From Muribaculaceae bacterium Isolate-110 (HZI) (GTDB taxonomy: Bacteria; Bacteroidota; Bacteroidia; Bacteroidales; Muribaculaceae): a stretch of DNA of 56,885 nt. The translations under genes and the position numbers were made by a program. Each line of letters opens with the position of its first letter. The first letter of the stretch is position 1. Where the stretch lies: positions 1 to 56,885 of the forward strand of contig RIBL01000020.1 in assembly GCA_003762875.1 (NCBI GenBank), given 5' to 3'. The notes beneath the pieces are model-generated. The model was given only the letters and a program-made list of their open reading frames with translations, searched no databases and was not told where the DNA came from. Below are positions 14,788 through 53,434 of the stretch, in pieces.

Positions 14788-15005
14788 GCGAAAATAATCG
14801 ACATTTGATGTGACAAATGTCCCATAAGAATGGGAAAAACAGCGGAAAAACAGCTTAGAGCATATTTTTTCTTAGTTTTTCACATGTTGGAGTGGGGTAT
14901 GGTGTTATTGCATGTCTTGCCATACTGAATATTAGATCCGTGGGGGAATGGACTGTTGCTTTCCGATTGGATCTGTTGGCTTTAGCGCCCGTGTATTTTT
15001 CGCTA

Positions 15006-15245
15006 CGAAGTTACGGCGGGCGATGCCGACGGCAAGTGACCGCTGTGCTTGTCTGCATGGAAAGTTGTCGGCAGCCTTCCGCAATTTGTGCCAAATTGGG
15101 TATTCCGACATCTTTCCGCTTGCCACACTTGCCTACGTCATCTATGCCCGTCGAGTATGATGTATCGAAAAAATTACCCCGGTCGCGAGAAGCCAAAAGG
15201 CTTCAAACCAAAGGGATAAATATTAACTTCTAAACATAAGGAACT
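15006..15245 (+). ncRNA. structured leader, copy 1
   Basis: Diverged copy of a leader seen three times. Conserved primary sequence: CGAAGTTACkGCG at the start (about 15006-15018), GGCAGCCTTCCGCAATTT, ATTGGGTATTCCG, CACACTTGCC and the end AACATAAGGAACTATG. Pairings: an outer helix GGCGGGC (15015-15021) with GCCCGTC (15146-15152); a central hairpin CAATTT (15082-15087) with AAATTG (15093-15098) around loop GTGCC; and a 3' hairpin GAAGCC (15189-15194) with GGCTTC (15199-15204) around AAAA. The outer and 3' helices differ in sequence from copies 2 and 3 while still pairing. It directly precedes 15246-15731. The 250 bases before it (14755-15005) hold the - strand promoter and nothing else I can identify. 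Confidence 0.65.
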
Positions 15246-15731
15246 ATGCACGGAATAGTCTATCAAATCAGTACGTCACCCATTGACTGTGATGACTACA
15301 TCGGTATCGACACCGTATCGGAGGGCGACATGGCAGGCTTCGACTATCTTTATGATACCGAAGAGAGCGAGCGCAGTGAACTCATACATGACCTTGTGGA
15401 GCGCATACTCCCAAAGGGTATGTTCACACTTGACACCGACAACGAGACCCTTGTTTATCAAGGCGGTTTTGAGGCATGGCGAAAGTCGTATCTCGACCTT
15501 ATCCGAACAAAGACGGAAGCCATTGACGAGGACAACATCATGGAATGGATAGGTCCGGCTTATCAGTTGCAAAAGACTATCGTAAACCCGCTTGAAAGCC
15601 CCGACTACTTTGTACTTGAATCGGACAGTTACGGTACCGCCGAGCGTTCTCGCGAACTTATGCTCTTAGTGAGCAAACTTGAAGCCGGAGCGAAACTATA
15701 TATAGGGGAAATACTTGGCTATCACGCTTAA
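15246..15731 (+). CDS. hypothetical protein downstream of leader copy 1
   Basis: 161 residues, acidic (MHGIVYQISTSPIDCDDYIG...). It contains IDTVSEGDMAGFDYLYD and a later WIGPAYQLQKTIVNPLESPDYFVLESD. No family recognised. The start follows AAGGAACT, the ribosome-binding site at the end of leader copy 1. First of three small genes in a + strand cluster. Confidence 0.65.
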   Translation: MHGIVYQISTSPIDCDDYIGIDTVSEGDMAGFDYLYDTEESERSELIHDLVERILPKGMFTLDTDNETLVYQGGFEAWRKSYLDLIRTKTEAIDEDNIMEWIGPAYQLQKTIVNPLESPDYFVLESDSYGTAERSRELMLLVSKLEAGAKLYIGEILGYHA

Positions 15732-16839: not shown

Positions 16840-16927
16840 GGAAGCATGGGTGAGCGGTCGAAACCAGCCCTCTGCTAAGGGGCCGAGCCTCAAAAAGACT
16901 CCGAAAGTTCGAATCTTTCTGCTTCCG
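16840..16927 (+). tRNA. tRNA-Ser (GCT anticodon)
   Basis: Acceptor GGAAGCA (16840-16846) pairs with TGCTTCC (16920-16926), discriminator G. The anticodon loop CTGCTAA gives GCT. A long variable arm and T arm GAAAG-TTCGAAT-CTTTC fit a class II serine tRNA. CCA is not encoded. Confidence 0.88.
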
Positions 16928-16934
16928 CTTCAAA

Positions 16935-17007
16935 GGACACTTGGCAGACATGGTGTATGCGCAGGACTGAAAATCCTGAGAATGTGGTTCGAGTCCACGA
17001 GTGTCCA
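16935..17007 (+). tRNA. tRNA-Phe (GAA anticodon), divergent
   Basis: Acceptor GGACACT (16935-16941) pairs with AGTGTCC (17000-17006), discriminator A. The anticodon stem-loop CAGGA-CTGAAAA-TCCTG gives GAA. T arm TGTGG-TTCGAGT-CCACG. The D arm (GCA-GACATGGTGTA-TGC) is unusual and the sequence is far from typical chromosomal tRNA-Phe, as expected for a mobile-element tRNA. Confidence 0.75.
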
Positions 17008-17016
17008 CGATAATAT

Positions 17017-17092
17017 GCAGGTATAGCTCAGTTGGTAGAGCGTCGGTCTCCAAAACCGAAAGTCGTGGGTTCAAGTCCTTCTGCCTGTGCCA
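17017..17092 (+). tRNA. tRNA-Trp (CCA anticodon)
   Basis: Acceptor GCAGGTA pairs with TGCCTGT (two G-U pairs), discriminator G, encoded CCA at 17090-17092. The anticodon stem-loop TCGGT-CTCCAAA-ACCGA gives CCA. The D arm is regular. The T stem (GTGGG/CCTTC) has one T-T mismatch. Confidence 0.85.
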
Positions 17093-17100
17093 ATAATAAC

Positions 17101-17182
17101 TGGGGTGTCGCATAGCGGCTATTGCAGGAGACTGTAAATCTCCCGTCTTCGGACATCGTAGGTTCGAGTCCTACCGCCCCAA
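17101..17182 (+). tRNA. tRNA-Tyr (GTA anticodon)
   Basis: Acceptor TGGGGTG (17101-17107) pairs with CGCCCCA (17175-17181), discriminator A. The anticodon stem-loop GGAGA-CTGTAAA-TCTCC gives GTA. The long variable arm and the T arm GTAGG-TTCGAGT-CCTAC fit a class II tyrosine tRNA. Confidence 0.85.
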
Positions 17183-17191
17183 CAAATATAT

Positions 17192-17340
17192 GCTTCCGTA
17201 GCTCAGTGGATCAGAGCATCACGCTACGAACGTGAGGGTCGCAAGTTGGCTTTGCCCATCTCCTTGCGCCTCAGCATAGTTCAAGCAAGCTTGGCTCTGC
17301 ACTCGGCACTGCGTCGAGTCGAGTCTTGCCGGAAATACCA
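17192..17340 (+). tRNA. tRNA-Arg (ACG anticodon) interrupted in the T loop; probable pseudo-tRNA
   Basis: D arm GCTC/GAGC, anticodon stem-loop TCACG-CTACGAA-CGTGA (anticodon ACG at 17226-17228) and the 5' half of the T arm GCAAG-TT (17241-17247) are normal. The sequence then leaves the tRNA for 72 bases and returns with CGAGT-CTTGC (17320-17329), which completes T loop TTCGAGT and its stem. The acceptor GCTTCCG pairs with CGGAAAT with one C-A mismatch and one G-T. CCA is encoded (17338-17340). Unless the insert is removed, this tRNA cannot fold normally. Confidence 0.75.
17248..17319 (+). repeat. 72-base insert in the T loop of tRNA-Arg
   Basis: Begins GGCTTTGCCC and ends GCGTCGAGT; the last bases CGAGT repeat the adjoining tRNA bases CGAGT (17320-17324). 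It contains CTCAGCATAGTTCAAGCAAG and GCTTGGCTCTGCACTCGGC, which I recall as common in a repeated Bacteroidales sequence, from memory only. It has no open frame and no clear inverted ends. Confidence 0.6.
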
Positions 17341-17346
17341 ATATAC

Positions 17347-17418
17347 TGTGGGGTGCAGCAGTGGTAGCTAACGAGCCTCATAAGCTCGGAGTCGGTGGTT
17401 CGAATCCATCCCCCGCAA
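17347..17418 (+). tRNA. tRNA-Met (CAT anticodon)
   Basis: Acceptor TGTGGGG (17347-17353) pairs with CCCCGCA (17411-17417), discriminator A. The anticodon stem-loop CGAGC-CTCATAA-GCTCG gives CAT. The anticodon stem lacks the three G-C pairs of initiator tRNA, so it is an elongator type (or an Ile tRNA if C34 is converted to lysidine, which cannot be told by eye). Confidence 0.78.
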
Positions 17419-17425
17419 CCGATAT

Positions 17426-17499
17426 GTGAGAATGCCCGAGCGGTTCAAGGGACCGGTCTGCAAAACCGGTATTCGTCGGTTCAAATCCGACTTCTCACT
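17426..17499 (+). tRNA. tRNA-Cys (GCA anticodon)
   Basis: Acceptor GTGAGAA (17426-17432) pairs with TTCTCAC (17492-17498), discriminator T, as usual for Cys. The anticodon stem-loop CCGGT-CTGCAAA-ACCGG gives GCA. T arm GTCGG-TTCAAAT-CCGAC. Confidence 0.88.
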
Positions 17500-17506
17500 C
17501 AAAGGT

Positions 17507-19376: not shown

Positions 19377-19430
19377 TATTTCGGAATTATCCTTTGACGG
19401 CTTTGGGCTTCATGGTCGGGATGTTTTATT

Positions 19431-19686
19431 GTGCGAAGTTACTGCGTCCCGGGCAACGTCAAGTGCCGCTGACGCTTTCCGTCGGAGGGCTTGACGGCAG
19501 CCTTCCGCAATTTTTCTTCGTGCCTATAAAAATTGGGTATTCCGTCCGCGCCCTCTGACTCCACACTTGCCTTATGCTCCCTTGTGTCCGCAGTGTTCAC
19601 TTGCACATAAAACGGTTCTCCCGACCAGGAAACTCAAAGAGCTTTACAAAAGGGAAAAGAATTGGAACTCACAAACATAAGGAACT
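19431..19686 (+). ncRNA. structured leader, copy 2
   Basis: Same leader as at 15006 and 51201. GTGCGAAGTTACTGCG at the start; outer helix ACTGCG (19441-19446) with CGCAGT (19589-19594); central hairpin CAATTTTT (19508-19515) with AAAAATTG (19528-19535) around a loop containing GTGCC; a further helix GGAGGGCT with AGCCTTCC (one G-U) before it; a weak 3' hairpin CTC-AAA-GAG at about 19633; end AACATAAGGAACTATG, whose ATG is the PcfK start. Confidence 0.7.
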
Positions 19687-20118
19687 ATGATGAAAGGAAC
19701 AGAACATTTCAAGCAGGTTATCAAGTCATATCTTGATAAGAGAGCGGAGAGCGATGAACTCTTCCGTGCCAAGTACGAAACCACCACTCGCACTATCGAG
19801 GACATAGCGACATACATTCTCAATGAGGTCAAGGCTTCGGGGTGTTGCGGTTTTACAGATGATGAGATTTTCTCTATGGCGGTACACGTCATAGATGAGC
19901 CTGACATTGAAATCGGCAAATCCATGACATGCGGTGTAGTGGTCAACCACCACATAGAACTGACCGAGGAGGAAAAGGAAGAGCAGAAAGCCATTGCCCT
20001 CAAACGCTTCCAAGATGAAGAACTCCGCAAGTTGCAGTCACGCAACTCCAAACCCAAGGCGGTAAAAACGCAGGAGAACAAGCAACCCGAATTATCACTC
20101 TTTGGCGATGACTTTTAA
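19687..20118 (+). CDS. PcfK-like protein
   Basis: 143 residues. MMKGTEHFKQVIKSYLDKRAESDELF, YILNEVKASGCCGFTDDEIFSMAVHVIDE, MTCGVVVNHHIELTEEEKEEQK and the C-terminal LSLFGDDF all follow the Bacteroidales PcfK-like family closely. PcfK and PcfJ are named after genes of the pCF10 conjugation region; their biochemical role is unknown. Directly after leader copy 2 and 3 bases before the PcfJ gene, with which it is nearly always paired. Confidence 0.88.
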   Translation: MMKGTEHFKQVIKSYLDKRAESDELFRAKYETTTRTIEDIATYILNEVKASGCCGFTDDEIFSMAVHVIDEPDIEIGKSMTCGVVVNHHIELTEEEKEEQKAIALKRFQDEELRKLQSRNSKPKAVKTQENKQPELSLFGDDF

Positions 20119-20121
20119 GCC

Positions 20122-21396
20122 ATGAAAGCACGTACATCATTCGAGAAGCAGGTGGCAGCCTCCAATGTGAGGCTGACCGCCATTGACCCCAAGGTTACAG
20201 AGTGGGGAGTAAAAAATCTGTTCAACCATCCGGCTTTCAGAGTGCCGAGCGGTCTTACCACTTGTGGAGACTGCGGTCATAAGTTCCGACATGAGGGAAA
20301 GGGCAAGTATGTCGTATGCCCTCACTGCGGACACAGACTGATGATAAAAGACACCCTCAATCGCACTCATAAGGAAAGCACATACTTTGCTGTCCTTGAC
20401 ACTATCGACGGTTTGCAGGTGGAACGTGTGTTTATTCTGACCGTGGAGTTTAAGAAAAGTCAGCCGTTGAACTCTTATAATGTGGAGGTGTGCCGTCTAT
20501 GGCTCAATGCCAAGGGGCAGACAGCACTGACATCAAAGGCAAGGACAATAGGATATTATCGTGATTGTTTCAACTGGGGTTCGGAGATAGAACTCCGGAA
20601 TATGTCGGACGTTCATCACATCATAGCCAACACGTGGCACTATCCGAGATACAAGGCAATTCCGGAACTGAGGCGAAACGGCATGAAAGGTGCATTGCCC
20701 GACTGCCACCCATTTGAACTGATGAAGGCTCTTCTGACCGACACAAGGATTGAGACACTTATGAAAGCCGGAAACCATAGAGCGGTAAAGTATTTTCTCT
20801 CCAACAAGTCTATGCTTGACAAGTGCTGGAACTCACATAAGATTGCCATGCGCAACGGCTATCAGATTAAGGATTACGGATTGTGGTGCGACCTTATCAA
20901 GCTACTTGACAAGGCAGGAAAGGACACACGCAACGCCAAATATATCTGCCCCGTAAATCTAAAGGTGGCACATGACCTTTGGCTCGACAAGGTAACTTCC
21001 GCAGATGAGAAGCGCAGAAAATCCGAGGAACTTGCCAAGGCTAAAAAGGAGGAAAAGAGGTTTTATCAGACCAAATCATGCTTCTTCGGCATTGTCATCA
21101 GGGACAAGGACATCGAGGTTTCAGTTCTTGACAGCATAGAGGCTTATCAGAACGAGGGAGAGGCTATGCACCATTGCGTGTTCAAGTGCAATTACTACAG
21201 CCGTGAGGACTCACTCATTCTGTCGGCTCATGACAAGGACGGCAACCGCATCGAGACCGTCGAGTTTTCACTTACGGAGAACAAGGTCATTCAGAGCCGT
21301 GGGGTTTGCAATACCAATACCGAACTGCATGACCGCATTGTGAAACTTGTTAACGCCAACGCCCACCGCTTCATCAAGGCGAGGGCTTCAGCATAA
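20122..21396 (+). CDS. PcfJ-like protein
   Basis: 424 residues. An N-terminal zinc ribbon (CGDCGHKFRH...CPHCGHRL, about residues 48-73) is followed by STYFAVLDTIDGLQVERVFIL and a long helical region. The C-terminal part (about 335-420) contains 'VLDSIEAYQNEGEAMHHCVF', 'YYSREDSLILSAHDKDGNRIETVEFSL' and 'VIQSRGVCNTNTELHDRIV', the conserved PcfJ domain. Forms an operon with PcfK. A role in element transfer or establishment is inferred from where the family occurs. Confidence 0.88.
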   Translation: MKARTSFEKQVAASNVRLTAIDPKVTEWGVKNLFNHPAFRVPSGLTTCGDCGHKFRHEGKGKYVVCPHCGHRLMIKDTLNRTHKESTYFAVLDTIDGLQVERVFILTVEFKKSQPLNSYNVEVCRLWLNAKGQTALTSKARTIGYYRDCFNWGSEIELRNMSDVHHIIANTWHYPRYKAIPELRRNGMKGALPDCHPFELMKALLTDTRIETLMKAGNHRAVKYFLSNKSMLDKCWNSHKIAMRNGYQIKDYGLWCDLIKLLDKAGKDTRNAKYICPVNLKVAHDLWLDKVTSADEKRRKSEELAKAKKEEKRFYQTKSCFFGIVIRDKDIEVSVLDSIEAYQNEGEAMHHCVFKCNYYSREDSLILSAHDKDGNRIETVEFSLTENKVIQSRGVCNTNTELHDRIVKLVNANAHRFIKARASA

Positions 21397-21541: not shown

Positions 21542-22297
21542 ATGAAAACCAAGATAATTACCATCGCCAACCACAAGGGAGGCGTAGGAAAAACAACCTC
21601 TACCGCGTCTATCGGTGACGCACTCGCCATCCTTGGGAAGCAGGTTCTGCTGATCGACCTTGACGCACAGCAGAACCTCACGTTCACGCTGACGCAAAAC
21701 GAAGAGCCGGAGACCAGCGTGTATGACTCTCTTGTAAAGGACGCTCCGCTTCCAATCGTCAATGTCAGGAAGAACCTTGACATTGTTCCGGCGTCCCTTG
21801 AACTGGCAAGAGCCGAAATCGACATGGCAACCAAGATTGCGAGGGAAGGTATCCTCAAATCACTGCTTGCAGACCATATCGACAAGTACGATTATATCAT
21901 CATCGACTGTCCGCCGTCGCTCGGCATCGTCACCACCAATGCGCTTGTGGCTTCCGACAGGCTCTATATACCGCTGACCGCCGAGGCTCTTCCGATGAAA
22001 GGTCTCGCCATGCTTGACGATGTGGTGAGCGAAGTCCGCAGACGTGTCAATCCGGCTCTTGAATTAGGTGGAGTATTCTTCACACGTTTCAACAACCGTA
22101 ATCTCAACAAGGAGGTGGTCAAGATGATTGAAAGCCGGTATGCCGACAAGGTGTTCAAGACCAAAATCCGTGAGAACATCACTCTTGCCGAAATGCCTCT
22201 TTCCGGTCAGTCAATCTATGAGTATGACCCCAAGAGCAATGGAGCGGTCGACTACATGGCTCTGACCGAGGAGATAATCGCAAGAGAAGAGAAATAG
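21542..22297 (+). CDS. parA: ParA-type partition ATPase
   Basis: 251 residues. HKGGVGKTTSTASIGDALA (about 11-29) is the deviant Walker A motif of ParA/MinD ATPases, LLIDLDAQQNLT the Walker A' strand, and YIIIDCPPSLG the Walker B. This is the small (type Ib-like) ParA without an N-terminal DNA-binding domain. It acts with a DNA-binding partner to segregate plasmids or circular ICE forms; the ribbon-helix-helix gene 89 bases downstream is the natural partner. Confidence 0.9.
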   Translation: MKTKIITIANHKGGVGKTTSTASIGDALAILGKQVLLIDLDAQQNLTFTLTQNEEPETSVYDSLVKDAPLPIVNVRKNLDIVPASLELARAEIDMATKIAREGILKSLLADHIDKYDYIIIDCPPSLGIVTTNALVASDRLYIPLTAEALPMKGLAMLDDVVSEVRRRVNPALELGGVFFTRFNNRNLNKEVVKMIESRYADKVFKTKIRENITLAEMPLSGQSIYEYDPKSNGAVDYMALTEEIIAREEK

Positions 22298-50179: not shown

Positions 50180-51090
50180 AACTCATTTCTTTTTAATGCG
50201 TTTCTATATATATCATATATGCGCCTACGAAGCGATGACGGACGTATTACCGTCAGAGAGGAGCTTCTTTCAAGCAACGCCATCACGAAATCGTTTGTGA
50301 TACGGATGTGCAATCGGATTCTGAACTCTTCTTCATTATCCACAAGAATCTCTTGAGAACTATGCAATGGGGTCGTTTTAATGAATTTTCCGTCTAAAGG
50401 AGAATACGACAATTCCACTTCATCAATCGGAATGCCCGGGTCGTCCCAAATACCATAACTGTGTTTAAATAGATTGTCAGGATTGATTGATTCGTCCCGT
50501 TTGAACCGTTCGTCCAAAATGCAGAGATTGCTTATGCGATCTATGGCATATAACCTCAGATTGTCTCGTTCATCAAGTGCAAGCAGATACCATAAGCCGA
50601 GTGATTCCTTTAGATAATGAGGCTTGACAAGCCTGGTGATGATTTTATCTTCTTTCCTTACGAGTCGATAATCGAACCTTATTATCGAACAATCCTTTAT
50701 CGCCTTGATTAGAGTAGGAATGCTGTCACATCCTTTCGGACGGTGATGCTCGGGAATGATGAATCCGGCAGTTTGGGATTCCTGATTAAGTGACATCAGC
50801 AAATCGAAATTAGTCAGCAGTTCCTCATATCTTACATCATTATCGGTGGGTCTTTCCGCTATATAGTAACCACGACCACGATAGTTTTTGATTTCCACCT
50901 CAAACATCGACAGGATGTCTTTTATATCCCTCTGCAATGTACGTTGACTGATGCCGATTTCATATCCGCGAATATCCATCTGGAGATTCAGATATGAAAT
51001 CAAGCTATCGGAGGGAACATATTTTTCGTTCCCGGACAGTCTGTGAATGATAAGTATATAGCGGATCAACCGCCCCATGTTCTGATTCAT
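50176..51090 (-). CDS. WYL-domain transcriptional regulator
   Basis: 304 residues. MGRLIRYILIIHRLSGNEKYVP and ISQRTLQRDIKDILSMF make a winged-helix domain (1-85). The WYL domain (about 125-205) has IIRFDYRLVRKEDKIITRLVKPHYLKESLGLWYLLALDERDNLRLYAIDRIS, and a WCX-type C-terminal extension follows. Full-length, unlike the truncated copy at 17551-17964. WYL regulators often control phage-defence operons. A TAACTTTG box lies 4 bases before the ATG at 51090, so the ATG at 51078 (MGRLIRY) may be the real start if that box is used. Confidence 0.88.
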   Translation of the reverse strand: MNQNMGRLIRYILIIHRLSGNEKYVPSDSLISYLNLQMDIRGYEIGISQRTLQRDIKDILSMFEVEIKNYRGRGYYIAERPTDNDVRYEELLTNFDLLMSLNQESQTAGFIIPEHHRPKGCDSIPTLIKAIKDCSIIRFDYRLVRKEDKIITRLVKPHYLKESLGLWYLLALDERDNLRLYAIDRISNLCILDERFKRDESINPDNLFKHSYGIWDDPGIPIDEVELSYSPLDGKFIKTTPLHSSQEILVDNEEEFRIRLHIRITNDFVMALLERSSSLTVIRPSSLRRRIYDIYRNALKRNEL

Positions 51091-51200
51091 GCCACAAAGT
51101 TATAATATGAGAACGTCAATTCATGTCGTTTTCATAAAAATTTATGCGATTTTCTCCGATTGATTCGATTTGTTCTTCCGGCAGGGAGGCGTTTTTCTGT

Positions 51201-51453
51201 GCAAAGTTACTGCGTCCGGGAGCAACGTCAAGTGACGCTGCGCTTTCCGCCTGCGTCATCGACCGTGAGCCTCCACAAATTTTCTCGTGCCTCCAAAATT
51301 TGGGTATCCCGATCTTGCCGCTGACTCCACACTTGTCTTATGTTCCCTTCTGGACGCAGTTGTAGGCTTGCACGAAAAACGGCCAGCCCTGCCGAAGAAG
51401 CTCAAAGAGCTTCACAAAAGGGAACAGAACTTGAACTTATAACATAAGGAACT
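51201..51453 (+). ncRNA. structured leader, copy 3
   Basis: GCAAAGTTACTGCGTCCGGG at the start. Outer helix CTGCGTCC (51210-51217) with GGACGCAG (51352-51359), eight perfect pairs; CGTC-AAGT-GACG small hairpin (about 51226-51237); central hairpin CAAATTTT (51276-51283) with AAAATTTG (51295-51302) around a loop containing GTGCC; 3' hairpin GAAGCTC-AAA-GAGCTTC (about 51397-51413). It ends AACATAAGGAACTATG at the first gene. The first bases also read TAACTTTG on the - strand, so a divergent promoter toward the WYL gene may overlap. Confidence 0.72.
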
Positions 51454-51648
51454 ATGAGAGTAAAACGAATGACTATTGAAGAGGGCAAGCAAGTAGGTAT
51501 CAGCCGCTTCCCGAACTTCCACAAGACAGGAAGTGTCCGAGGCATGAAGAAGCTCTATTATGGAGCGGACTGCCTTTTGGTACGTTGTGGCGACTATATC
51601 TATAATGTGTCGCCCGAACCCCAAATCTACAATCATGCAACAATCTAA
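51454..51648 (+). CDS. small hypothetical protein downstream of leader copy 3
   Basis: 64 residues (MRVKRMTIEEGKQVGISRFP...), basic, with MKKLYYGADCLLVRCGDYIYNV near the end, a compact beta pattern. The start follows the AAGGAACT at the end of leader copy 3. Family unknown. Confidence 0.6.
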   Translation: MRVKRMTIEEGKQVGISRFPNFHKTGSVRGMKKLYYGADCLLVRCGDYIYNVSPEPQIYNHATI

Positions 51649-51660
51649 TTCCTACAAGAC

Positions 51661-51978
51661 ATGAATACAGACATCGACTTTATGAATATCACCGAGGGCG
51701 ACAAGGCGTTTGTGACGGAGTTTGAGAACTTTGTCAACGGCAGAGTGAACAGCACGGAAAAGACCGGCATGGCTATGACCACCATGCACCGCTATCTGCA
51801 ACAGCAGGCTTTCAAGGTCATGCTCGGCTACATGAAGGCTCTTGCATATAACTACCGCAAAGGTCGTTATGACGAGCGCAACGAGTGGGCATCACGTATC
51901 GCTGACGAGGCTTATAGCCATCTTATTGACTATGACCTCATATACGACGCTGATTATACAGAACTTAAAAACGGATAA
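51661..51978 (+). CDS. small helical hypothetical protein
   Basis: 105 residues (MNTDIDFMNITEGDKAFVTE...). Mostly helical, with HRYLQQQAFKVMLGYMKALAYNYRKGRYDERNEWASRIADEAYSHL. It lies 12 bases after the previous gene. No family recognised. Confidence 0.6.
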   Translation: MNTDIDFMNITEGDKAFVTEFENFVNGRVNSTEKTGMAMTTMHRYLQQQAFKVMLGYMKALAYNYRKGRYDERNEWASRIADEAYSHLIDYDLIYDADYTELKNG

Positions 51979-51982
51979 TGAC

Positions 51983-52150
51983 ATGGAAGATACCGATTTC
52001 CCCGAATACGGACGGCAGTGTGAACTCAAAGAGCCGTGGCGAGGCTACCACAGAGGAACAATCGTAGGACGCAACGGCTACCGCTTCATAATCGAGTTGA
52101 GCAGTGGAGCGAGAATAGAACTTTATGATGACGAAATAGAATTTGACTGA
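51983..52150 (+). CDS. 55-residue beta-rich protein
   Basis: ATG 51983 gives MEDTDFPEYGRQCELKEPWR and then 'GYHRGTIVGRNGYRFIIELSSGARIELYDDEIEF', a compact five-strand pattern. It lies 4 bases after one gene and 1 before the next, so it fills a gap in a tight operon, which supports a real gene. Function unknown. Confidence 0.6.
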   Translation: MEDTDFPEYGRQCELKEPWRGYHRGTIVGRNGYRFIIELSSGARIELYDDEIEFD

Positions 52151-52151
52151 T

Positions 52152-52514
52152 ATGTGCAGACTACAGACACCCCAGTTGGAGGAAGTCTTGAAGGACTATC
52201 CCCTTTATTCCCAGGACGGCAAGGGAAAGGAAGCTATTTGCCGTGCAATATTCGCACTCGGTTCCGCCCGATGGTTCATACTTGAAGGTGAACAAGAGGG
52301 AGGTGACACCATCATGTTCGGCATAGTGACCGGACTGATTGAGGACGAGTACGGCTATGTGTCACTCAACGAGTTATCCGAGGTTGAACTCGACCTCAGC
52401 GCACAAGGCTACGGCAAACTGCAAGTGAGACAGCAGCCTGACTTCAAGCCGACCGCCTTGAAGAACCTACGCGACGACCGCTTGCAGAAGTTTCTCGCAA
52501 GGTTCGAGGATTAA
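52152..52514 (+). CDS. DUF2958 family protein
   Basis: 120 residues from ATG 52152; a TTG at 52143 is an alternative. 'LKDYPLYSQDGKGKEAICRAIFALGSARWFILEGEQEGGDTIMFGIVTGLIEDEYGYVSLNELSEVEL' follows the DUF2958 pattern (PLY...; W.itEg...gD..fFG.v.gle.E.GyfsL.ELe). DUF2958 proteins are typical of conjugative plasmids; function unknown. Confidence 0.82.
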   Translation: MCRLQTPQLEEVLKDYPLYSQDGKGKEAICRAIFALGSARWFILEGEQEGGDTIMFGIVTGLIEDEYGYVSLNELSEVELDLSAQGYGKLQVRQQPDFKPTALKNLRDDRLQKFLARFED

Positions 52515-52569: not shown

Positions 52570-52947
52570 ATGTATATTGACGATTTGACCGATGCGGTGG
52601 TTACATGTGCCGAAGCCAAAGGCTGGCATGTGGAAGCGGGCATCATATACAAGGAGCAGAAAAGTGAGTTTGAGTTTGGCAAGTACAGCCCTGCCGGACG
52701 CGACTTTTCCTTCAACGCCACAATGAAATGCGCCAACATCAACTCTCTTATCGAGGACATCGACAATTACTATGAGGGATTTGATGTGGACTCCGAGACA
52801 TATATCTGGCTTGACCAGTTCGGGCATGGCAGAAACGGCGCTCCTTACAGAATGAGAGCCGTGCTTGAAGATATGGAAGCCACCGAGAAGATGATAGAGG
52901 AACTGCTGGACGCTATAAAGGAAATGGAGGTTCCCGAAGAATACTGA
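52570..52947 (+). CDS. hypothetical protein, paralog of the next gene
   Basis: 125 residues (MYIDDLTDAVVTCAEAKGWHV...). The pattern 'KGWHVEAG..YKEQKSEFEFGKYSPAGRDFSFNATMKCANINSLIEDIDNYYEGFD' and 'YRMRAVLEDMEATEKMIEELLDAI' lines up with the following gene (NGWQVSIT...FDFHRRTLGGLQFSFTAEL...LVDEIISFVDALD; YFQAVTDMDDIRTRAWLLALDL). No known family. Confidence 0.65.
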   Translation: MYIDDLTDAVVTCAEAKGWHVEAGIIYKEQKSEFEFGKYSPAGRDFSFNATMKCANINSLIEDIDNYYEGFDVDSETYIWLDQFGHGRNGAPYRMRAVLEDMEATEKMIEELLDAIKEMEVPEEY

Positions 52948-53053: not shown

Positions 53054-53434
53054 ATGTTACATAGTGATATAATTAAGATAGCAGTCAAGAATGGCTGGCA
53101 AGTCTCGATAACTGATAGTGAGGACGGCTTCTTCTTCGATTTCCATCGGCGGACGCTCGGCGGCTTGCAGTTCAGCTTCACCGCCGAGCTGACCGATGGA
53201 CTTATCGGCACCCTCGTCGACGAGATCATCTCCTTTGTCGATGCGCTCGACCCCGAGCGTTATGCCGGCGAGTGGCTTGAAATATCCGGTGACTTATCCC
53301 CGTCACGGTATTTTCAAGCTGTGACAGACATGGATGACATACGCACACGTGCCTGGCTTCTCGCCTTAGACCTTTCCGAAATCGCTGAGGAAGGGGATAA
53401 ACTTCTCAACTTTCCGTGGTACCGCTGGAACTGA
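53054..53434 (+). CDS. hypothetical protein, paralog of the previous gene
   Basis: 126 residues (MLHSDIIKIAVKNGWQVSIT...). Similar in layout to the gene at 52570-52947: helix, beta hairpin (GFFFDFHRRTLGGLQFSFTAEL), a helix and an acidic C-terminal helix. Last gene of the + strand cluster. Function unknown. Confidence 0.6.
   Translation: MLHSDIIKIAVKNGWQVSITDSEDGFFFDFHRRTLGGLQFSFTAELTDGLIGTLVDEIISFVDALDPERYAGEWLEISGDLSPSRYFQAVTDMDDIRTRAWLLALDLSEIAEEGDKLLNFPWYRWN

Follow-up and report, generated by a model that had tools for sequence, protein, structure and literature searches.

What does a folded leader do that recurs, with altered sequence, before several gene clusters of one contig? We analyzed a window of 56,885 nucleotides from a Bacteroidales genome (Muribaculaceae bacterium Isolate-110 (HZI), assembly GCA_003762875.1, contig RIBL01000020.1, positions 1 to 56,885 of the forward strand). 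Genes of conjugative-element type are present on it, with MutS_I-domain, ArdC-like, Toprim/DUF3991, PcfK, PcfJ and ParA genes named by Pfam. Three leaders, all on the plus strand, stand directly 5' of the genes beginning at 15246, 19687 and 51454. A preliminary description had read compensatory base changes among them as the mark of a selected RNA, or folded DNA, structure and had inferred a regulatory role. The leaders and the helices it named were confirmed in all three copies, and the sequence identities it listed were found. The main part of each leader likewise lies where it had been placed, but the start does not: the element begins about 23 bases farther 5', with an outer helix, P0, that had been missed (Table 1).

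Table 1. Features of the three window leaders and of the genes behind them, in window positions, with the aligned leaders of a second type in the last line.
Feature	Position	Strand	Detail
Copy 1, P0 5' arm (AGCGCCCG...GTATTTTTCGCTAC)	14984..15006	+	partner ~15161-15186
Copy 1, -7 box TAACTTCG	15006..15013	-	TTG at 15033-15035, spacer 19
Copy 1, main hairpin	15014..15155	+	GGCGGGC 15015-15021 / GCCCGTC 15146-15152
Copy 1, apical helix	15082-15088 / 15092-15098		CAATTTG / CAAATTG
Copy 1, P0 3' arm and small hairpin	15161..15204	+	GAAGCC 15189-15194 / GGCTTC 15199-15204
First gene after copy 1	15246..15731	+	161 aa, family without a name; relatives behind leaders in other elements
Copy 2, P0 5' arm (GGTCGGGA...GTTTTATTGTGC)	19414..19434	+	partner 19603-19626
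Copy 2, -7 box TAACTTCG	19434..19441	-	TTG at 19460-19462, spacer 18
Copy 2, main hairpin	19442..19595	+	apical CAATTTTT 19508-19515 / AAAAATTG 19528-19535
Copy 2, P0 3' arm (GCACATAAAAC...TCCCGACC)	19603..19626	+	
PcfK-like gene after copy 2	19687..20118	+	Pfam
Genes after the PcfK-like gene	20122-21396, 21542-22297		PcfJ-like, ParA-like (Pfam)
Copy 3, P0 5' arm (CGGCAGGG...GCGTTTTTCTGTGC)	51179..51202	+	pairs with 51370-51394 in the folded minus strand
Copy 3, -7 box TAACTTTG	51202..51209	-	at the internal loop between P0 and P1; promoter TTG-N19-TAACTTTG
Copy 3, -33 element TTG	51229..51231	-	spacer 19 to the -7 box; within P3, paired
Copy 3, main hairpin P1-P4	51210..51359	+	basis: covariation, model R1
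Copy 3, outermost P1 pairing	51210-51217 / 51352-51359		CTGCGTCC / GGACGCAG
Copy 3, apical helix	51276-51283 / 51295-51302		CAAATTTT / AAAATTTG
Copy 3, P0 3' arm (GCACGAAAAACGG...CCCTGCCG)	51370..51394	+	
Copy 3, predicted first transcribed bases	~51373-51379		estimated from the -7 box position
Copy 3, small 3' hairpin, in the predicted transcript	51397..51413	+	GAAGCTC 51397-51403 / GAGCTTC 51407-51413
First gene after copy 3	51454..51648	+	64 aa, family without a name; no Pfam match
Small ORFs after the first gene of copy 3	51661-51978, 52143-52514, 52570-52947, 53054-53434		
Aligned second-type leaders	last 300 bases 5' of the ParB-like gene		L168, L169, L171, L173, L176, L177, L179, L181, L182, L183, L190, L191

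Six tRNA genes (Ser, Phe, Trp, Tyr, Met and Cys) lie at 16840-17500, between the genes of leaders 1 and 2, and a weak Rfam match marks a seventh at 17192-17247. The operon of leader 2 is separated from leader 3 by a block mostly on the minus strand (23326-51090), apparently cargo, that encodes a UmuC-like polymerase, a RecD2-like helicase and a type I restriction-modification-like set recognized by eye.

Collection of homologs with a covariance model, as the preliminary description had proposed, revealed a family wider than the three copies. The model, R1, describes the main hairpin and was built from 23 copies. Within the host family, Muribaculaceae, 44 of 397 genomes contain a match, as do 4 of 393 genomes of the order; BLAST with copy 3 alone reached 10 of 149 and 2 of 393 genomes (own genome counted throughout). 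The 96 R1 matches are spread across 77 loci, one place being counted twice (L065 and L117). No match to the leader was found in a plasmid collection that contains F, and three occurred among phage records, all of them unannotated faecal records. A search with the ParB-like gene often found behind leaders returned 36 named loci; a strong R1 match lies just 5' of the gene in nine, seven already in the R1 set and two new (L161 and L163).

An ORF of at least 40 aa follows 92 of the 96 copies, and 68 of these 92 start 74-107 bases past the hairpin; the ORFs were picked mechanically, and several of those more than 110 bases away skip a short first gene or are doubtful. Tight arrays of three to four leaders about 0.9-2.6 kb apart occur at L098 11019-13130, L099 10185-14910, L125 1-5831 and L115 1382-4962, mostly with each leader 5' of a short gene without known family. 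Four copies (L120 2912-3068, L102 9060-9214, L126 467-604 and L121 3490-3567) show by eye a 5' arm without a matching 3' part and are decayed or cut elements. In two otherwise normal leaders (L006 1499-1785 and L038 5650-5841), about 30 extra bases, which look by eye like an inverted repeat, are inserted at the base of the apical helix.

The fold is under selection. Among the 82 distinct rows given by the 96 matches, changes affect both sides in 35 of 42 pairs. The covariation score is 0.394 versus 0.123 in shuffled alignments, none of 500 shuffles reaches any of five measures, and standard pairs occupy 89.3% of cells versus 70.6% after shuffling. Sliding the partners by 1-3 columns lowers the score to 0.063-0.080. 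This alignment was fitted to the R1 model. An unfitted MAFFT alignment of 23 copies (20 distinct) agrees with it: 91.7% of cells pair versus 80.4% in shuffles, the covariation score is 0.291 versus 0.104, and 0 of 500 shuffles match four of the measures, the fifth, a count of further pair types, being reached by 18 of 500. Since the copies share ancestry, these counts are not independent tests.

The outer helix P0 coevolves as well. When P0 arms were exchanged among 40 non-redundant copies (91 of the 96 were used and reduced to 40), pairing with the own partner averaged -19.0 kcal/mol versus -11.8 kcal/mol with swapped partners, and in 32 of the 40 copies no more than five of 39 foreign partners bound as well. 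Within the window, two of 39 foreign partners did so for copy 1 and 11 of 39 for copy 2, a weaker result than in most copies; copy 3 was represented by a relative. In L121 and L124, whose 3' ends appear by eye to be broken or misplaced, all 39 foreign partners were at least as good. Covariation in the larger alignment bears out the claim of compensatory change and selected structure made in the preliminary description, and the exchange of arms extends it to P0.

Folding energies add little. As RNA, the single window copies have z-scores of -4.07 (copy 1), -1.07 (copy 2) and -2.04 (copy 3); single-copy energies were dropped as proof because they are too weak. Copy 2 alone, as RNA, is not unusually stable, and the case therefore rests on covariation. 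Mean z-scores over 28 copies (-5.95 for the DNA minus strand, -5.25 for DNA plus, -5.16 for RNA plus and -4.98 for RNA minus) give the DNA minus strand only a slight advantage.

A cis-acting RNA leader (riboswitch, protein-binding leader or attenuator), folded within the transcript and controlling the gene, would account for the site 5' of same-strand genes, for the conserved start-codon context at which the window copies end and for the strong covariation. An RNA helix tolerates G·U but not A·C pairs, and on the complementary strand the two are swapped; in RNA, G·U is therefore expected to be much the commoner. Three RNA controls from the same host family gave G·U:A·C counts of 133:28 (RNase P), 16:6 (TPP) and 38:12 (cobalamin), 187:46 in sum. 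Unlike these, the leader helices gave 67:77 over the 82 distinct rows and, in an alignment made by MAFFT alone with P0 included (64 rows), 75:87; the smallest set, the 23-copy MAFFT alignment (20 rows), gave 18:13. Pairs for this comparison were predicted on both strands alike, and the leader ratio depends on the pairs taken, being 45:75, 67:77 or, with the 42 model pairs, 78:97 in the same large alignment. Counted per pair column, by which related copies weigh less, G·U-richer versus A·C-richer columns number 11:16 (82 rows) and 15:18 (64 rows) in the leader against 57:11 in the controls (Fisher approximately 1e-4); the smallest leader set, with 9:4, does not differ significantly from the controls (p 0.25). 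The 64 distinct rows remained after copies with N, cut flanks or a short hairpin match had been dropped. For RNase P, 25 of 30 loci entered and 23 were used (two clipped), TPP contributed 30 of 30 and cobalamin 28 of 30 (two clipped). Rfam gave no match to the leaders, either for the whole window at the gathering score or for 51150-51480 at E up to 1. Judged by its pairing, the fold is DNA-like, not RNA-like. Of the two structures first proposed, folded DNA is supported and RNA is not, given the pair counts (67:77 against 187:46) and the lack of an Rfam match. Counting A·C against G·U pairs offers a simple aid in telling whether a covarying leader folds as DNA or as RNA.

The minus strand of the leaders bears a promoter-like motif, TTG-N18/19-TAnnTTYG, in 83 of 95 copies (one of the 96 was dropped for N) versus 0.05% of shuffled arms; the motif is present in 33 of 38 copies at 85% non-redundancy and in 13 of 16 at 70%. 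Between -150 and +100 of 39 non-redundant copies, to which the 94 copies used in the strand comparison were reduced, it occurs on the minus strand in 35, with 0.7 of 39 expected from shuffles, and on the gene strand, searched as TTG-N18-21-TAnnTTYG, in none. In the minus-strand profile of the -7 box, the A, two T and the G are identical in 39 of 39 copies and the first T is kept in 37; C predominates at the second n (34), and the first n is variable, like most of the spacer. Twelve of the 95 copies lack the full motif. Six of them are leaders of ParB-like genes (of eleven such) that read TTACTTCG, three belong to one genome (G591) and lack the TTG, and three deviate singly. An RNA leader would have no need of the antisense promoter, which comprises the best-conserved bases. 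On the pair statistics, the missing sense-strand promoter and the Rfam result, we rejected the RNA leader, which we regard as very unlikely.

The boxes correspond to the primary sigma factor consensus of Bacteroidetes, TAnnTTTG at -7 and TTTG at about -33, as given in PMC7366714. The leaders thus carry the same boxes as sigma-ABfr promoters, at a fitting distance, but on the strand opposite the gene, so that they would serve it only through the fold. When the minus strands of 28 non-redundant copies were folded, P0 formed in 28 and P1-P3 in 27. The -33 bases are unpaired at 0.06-0.09. Within the -7 box, the mean unpaired probability of the six inner bases is 0.49-0.72, and the two outer bases are mostly paired, as is the spacer except for one position unpaired at 0.62. 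Copies with N, cut flanks or a hairpin match below 140 bases were dropped from the 28-copy fold sets. Two other placements, a -7 element at CACACTTG on the 3' arm and a promoter in the apical AT-rich helix, had been dropped by eye for wrong spacing and conservation, and the antisense boxes were fitted after that. In duplex DNA, the promoter faces away from the gene. The regulatory role first proposed for the leaders accordingly acquires a specific, predicted form, an antisense -33/-7 promoter that would read into the gene only by way of the fold.

A diverged leader type shows the same layout. Among 32 ParB-like loci with upstream sequence, 16 carry this second type as classed by eye, nine the first type and four coding sequence, and three were not classed. 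Twelve of the 16 were aligned; they come from Bacteroides, Parabacteroides, Phocaeicola, Mediterranea, Duncaniella, Leyella, Xylanibacter, Muribaculaceae and a record titled Roseburia. They retain an outer helix, CRAAnnT in the internal loop and a long hairpin whose tip is AT-rich, and their G·U:A·C count is 8:19, which supports the DNA-fold reading from sequences not used to build R1. By eye, the second type has no TTG at -33, and the first T of its looser -7 box is often missing. These losses weaken the claim that both boxes are always needed. The occurrence of such forms ahead of ParB-like genes in Bacteroides, Parabacteroides, Phocaeicola and elsewhere suggests that the design may extend through much of the order.

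The arrangement of leaders within elements bears on the strand that is transferred. All 19 clusters with at least two copies per contig (56 copies, counted by hand) keep to one strand each; a single copy at 1329053 of G057:C1, on the opposite strand to a cluster 85 kb away, was counted separately. In five clusters (G117, two elements of G057, G043 and G074 C11) a relaxase match lies on the same strand as the leaders and 5' of them, those of G117 and of one G057 element reaching the Pfam cut-off only together with neighbors in frame. A sub-cut-off relaxase match in G437 has the same layout; on the contig of the window, Pfam gave no relaxase. Along G117 come relaxase and Tra-like genes, then MutS_I and ArdC-like, next a leader and its ParB-like gene, three further leaders with genes, and finally an integrase adjoining groEL, the names of the Tra genes, ParB, integrase and groEL being given by eye. 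A further relaxase match in this genome, 13 kb 3' of the last leader and beyond integrase and groEL, belongs in our judgement to a different element. If the G117 element spans about 36-81 kb, the leaders would, in the excised circle, sit some 10-25 kb in front of the relaxase end with their genes pointing toward it; most leading genes of plasmid F likewise point to the transfer region. By the usual rule, as stated in PMC11541004, the relaxase enters last. Because the relaxase of relatives lies 5' on the same strand, we infer from this rule that the minus strand is the incoming one, and the polarity of transfer is understood here on that footing. At L098 (G531:C21 120001-140000), the MutS_I/ArdC-like genes are on the opposite strand to the leaders, unlike in the other elements compared.

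We consider it very probable, from sequence and predicted folds, that the leaders are Bacteroidota single-strand DNA promoters of an integrative conjugative element, Frpo-like in kind and addressed to the housekeeping sigma factor. The element would enter by conjugation as one strand, taken as the strand complementary to the genes, and each leader in it would fold into a long imperfect hairpin. Outward from the tip, the 3' arm of this hairpin would present a paired TTG (-33), 18-19 mostly paired bases, TAnnTTTG or TAnnTTCG (-7) and P0, with the -7 box largely in an internal loop that is already open. RNA polymerase is predicted to start in P0 and to copy the other arm out of the hairpin. The copied arm would read as gene-sense sequence (GAAAAACGG... 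in copy 3), and transcription would run on into the gene, whose start lies some 60-90 bases farther along. Second-strand synthesis would abolish the hairpin and leave a duplex promoter pointing away from the gene, and for these two reasons we propose that expression then stops. The genes served may be establishment genes, a putative label since PcfK is the only one of those scanned with a Pfam name above the cut-off (ParB-like was named by eye).

The same fold and strand polarity would fit equally well an ssi or primosome site that serves mainly to prime second-strand synthesis, with the RNA as primer and the place before genes secondary. The title of Masai and Arai names both transcription and primer RNA synthesis for Frpo. 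Priming alone hardly explains two to four copies per cluster, most of them at a near-constant distance from an ORF (68 of 92 at 74-107 bases), and the priming and promoter roles do not exclude each other; as the main function, priming seems if anything slightly less probable than an RNA leader. Less probable again are repeats of the EGeRS kind, which would act in duplex DNA before establishment operons without a single-strand promoter. Those of the pLS20-family plasmids are similarly laid out, with related repeats 5' of several establishment operons in one conjugative element. The pLS20 authors (PMC8708921) held a single-strand promoter to be highly unlikely for EGeRS because they saw no promoter in the fold and because the nicked strand is non-template. 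In the leaders, by contrast, a promoter does appear in the fold, and the relaxase placement suggests a polarity opposite to that described for pLS20 in the same source. Least probable is an ordinary leftward duplex promoter with the hairpin as a boundary or protein site (cruciform): the -33/-7 boxes are intact in the duplex and point left, and copy 3 has a left-pointing ORF starting at 51090, about 110 bases away, but we rejected this function on the neighboring genes, since a left-pointing ORF lies within 200 bases of only 16 of 91 copies (five of the 96 lacked upstream sequence) and a right-pointing neighbor within 600 bases of 41 of 91. A right-hand ORF follows 92 of 96, and coevolution of P0 with the far arm would be useless to a leftward transcript, which would leave the hairpin behind.

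Beyond the window, we think it reasonably likely that Bacteroidota elements evolved their own single-strand promoters apart from Frpo, with -33/-7 boxes, a pre-opened -7 loop and a one-way switch (into the gene when single-stranded, away from it when double-stranded), and that this design, running through much of the order, marks a large set of unnamed early-entry genes. A literature search with bioRxiv preprints outside its scope found, in the portions of sources it covered, no account of such promoters from Bacteroidota, and the main text of PMC11541004 nowhere contains the word stem 'bacteroid'. If the proposal is right, enterobacterial plasmids are not alone in expressing genes from incoming single-stranded DNA, and this ability arose for a second transcription machinery, in a dominant gut phylum; it would also explain how these elements make their first proteins on arrival in a new cell. 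Nearly all of the scanned leader-served genes are without known family. The leaders would, on this reading, also serve as a flag, each gene directly behind one being a candidate establishment or anti-defence gene.

Frpo1 and Frpo2 of plasmid F are the closest known counterparts in kind: they are single-strand folds with -10/-35 boxes, required for the genes behind them to be expressed early, as reported in PMC9849209. The F region was folded for comparison with the leaders. A TTGACA/TATAAT rule applied to F Frpo found nothing at 9/12 or better on either strand, and we therefore did not use Frpo box positions as evidence. The R1 model has no match in F 48000-68000 and no plasmid match; by sequence, the leaders are not members of the Frpo family, and they apparently have a separate origin and use another sigma factor. 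Where Frpo has -35/-10 boxes and serves ssb, psiB and ygeA, the leaders have Bacteroidetes -33/-7 boxes and would serve PcfK, ParB-like and unnamed-family genes. The likeness is one of design. Frpo/ssi of plasmid F and ColIb-P9, as described in PMC9849209 and PMC11541004, are likewise repeated leaders before early genes of a conjugative element, with genes in one orientation and a single strand that folds into a long imperfect hairpin presenting promoter boxes. The leaders, too, have a stable, selected single-strand hairpin, and in its predicted fold the boxes for the main sigma factor of the host point into the gene.
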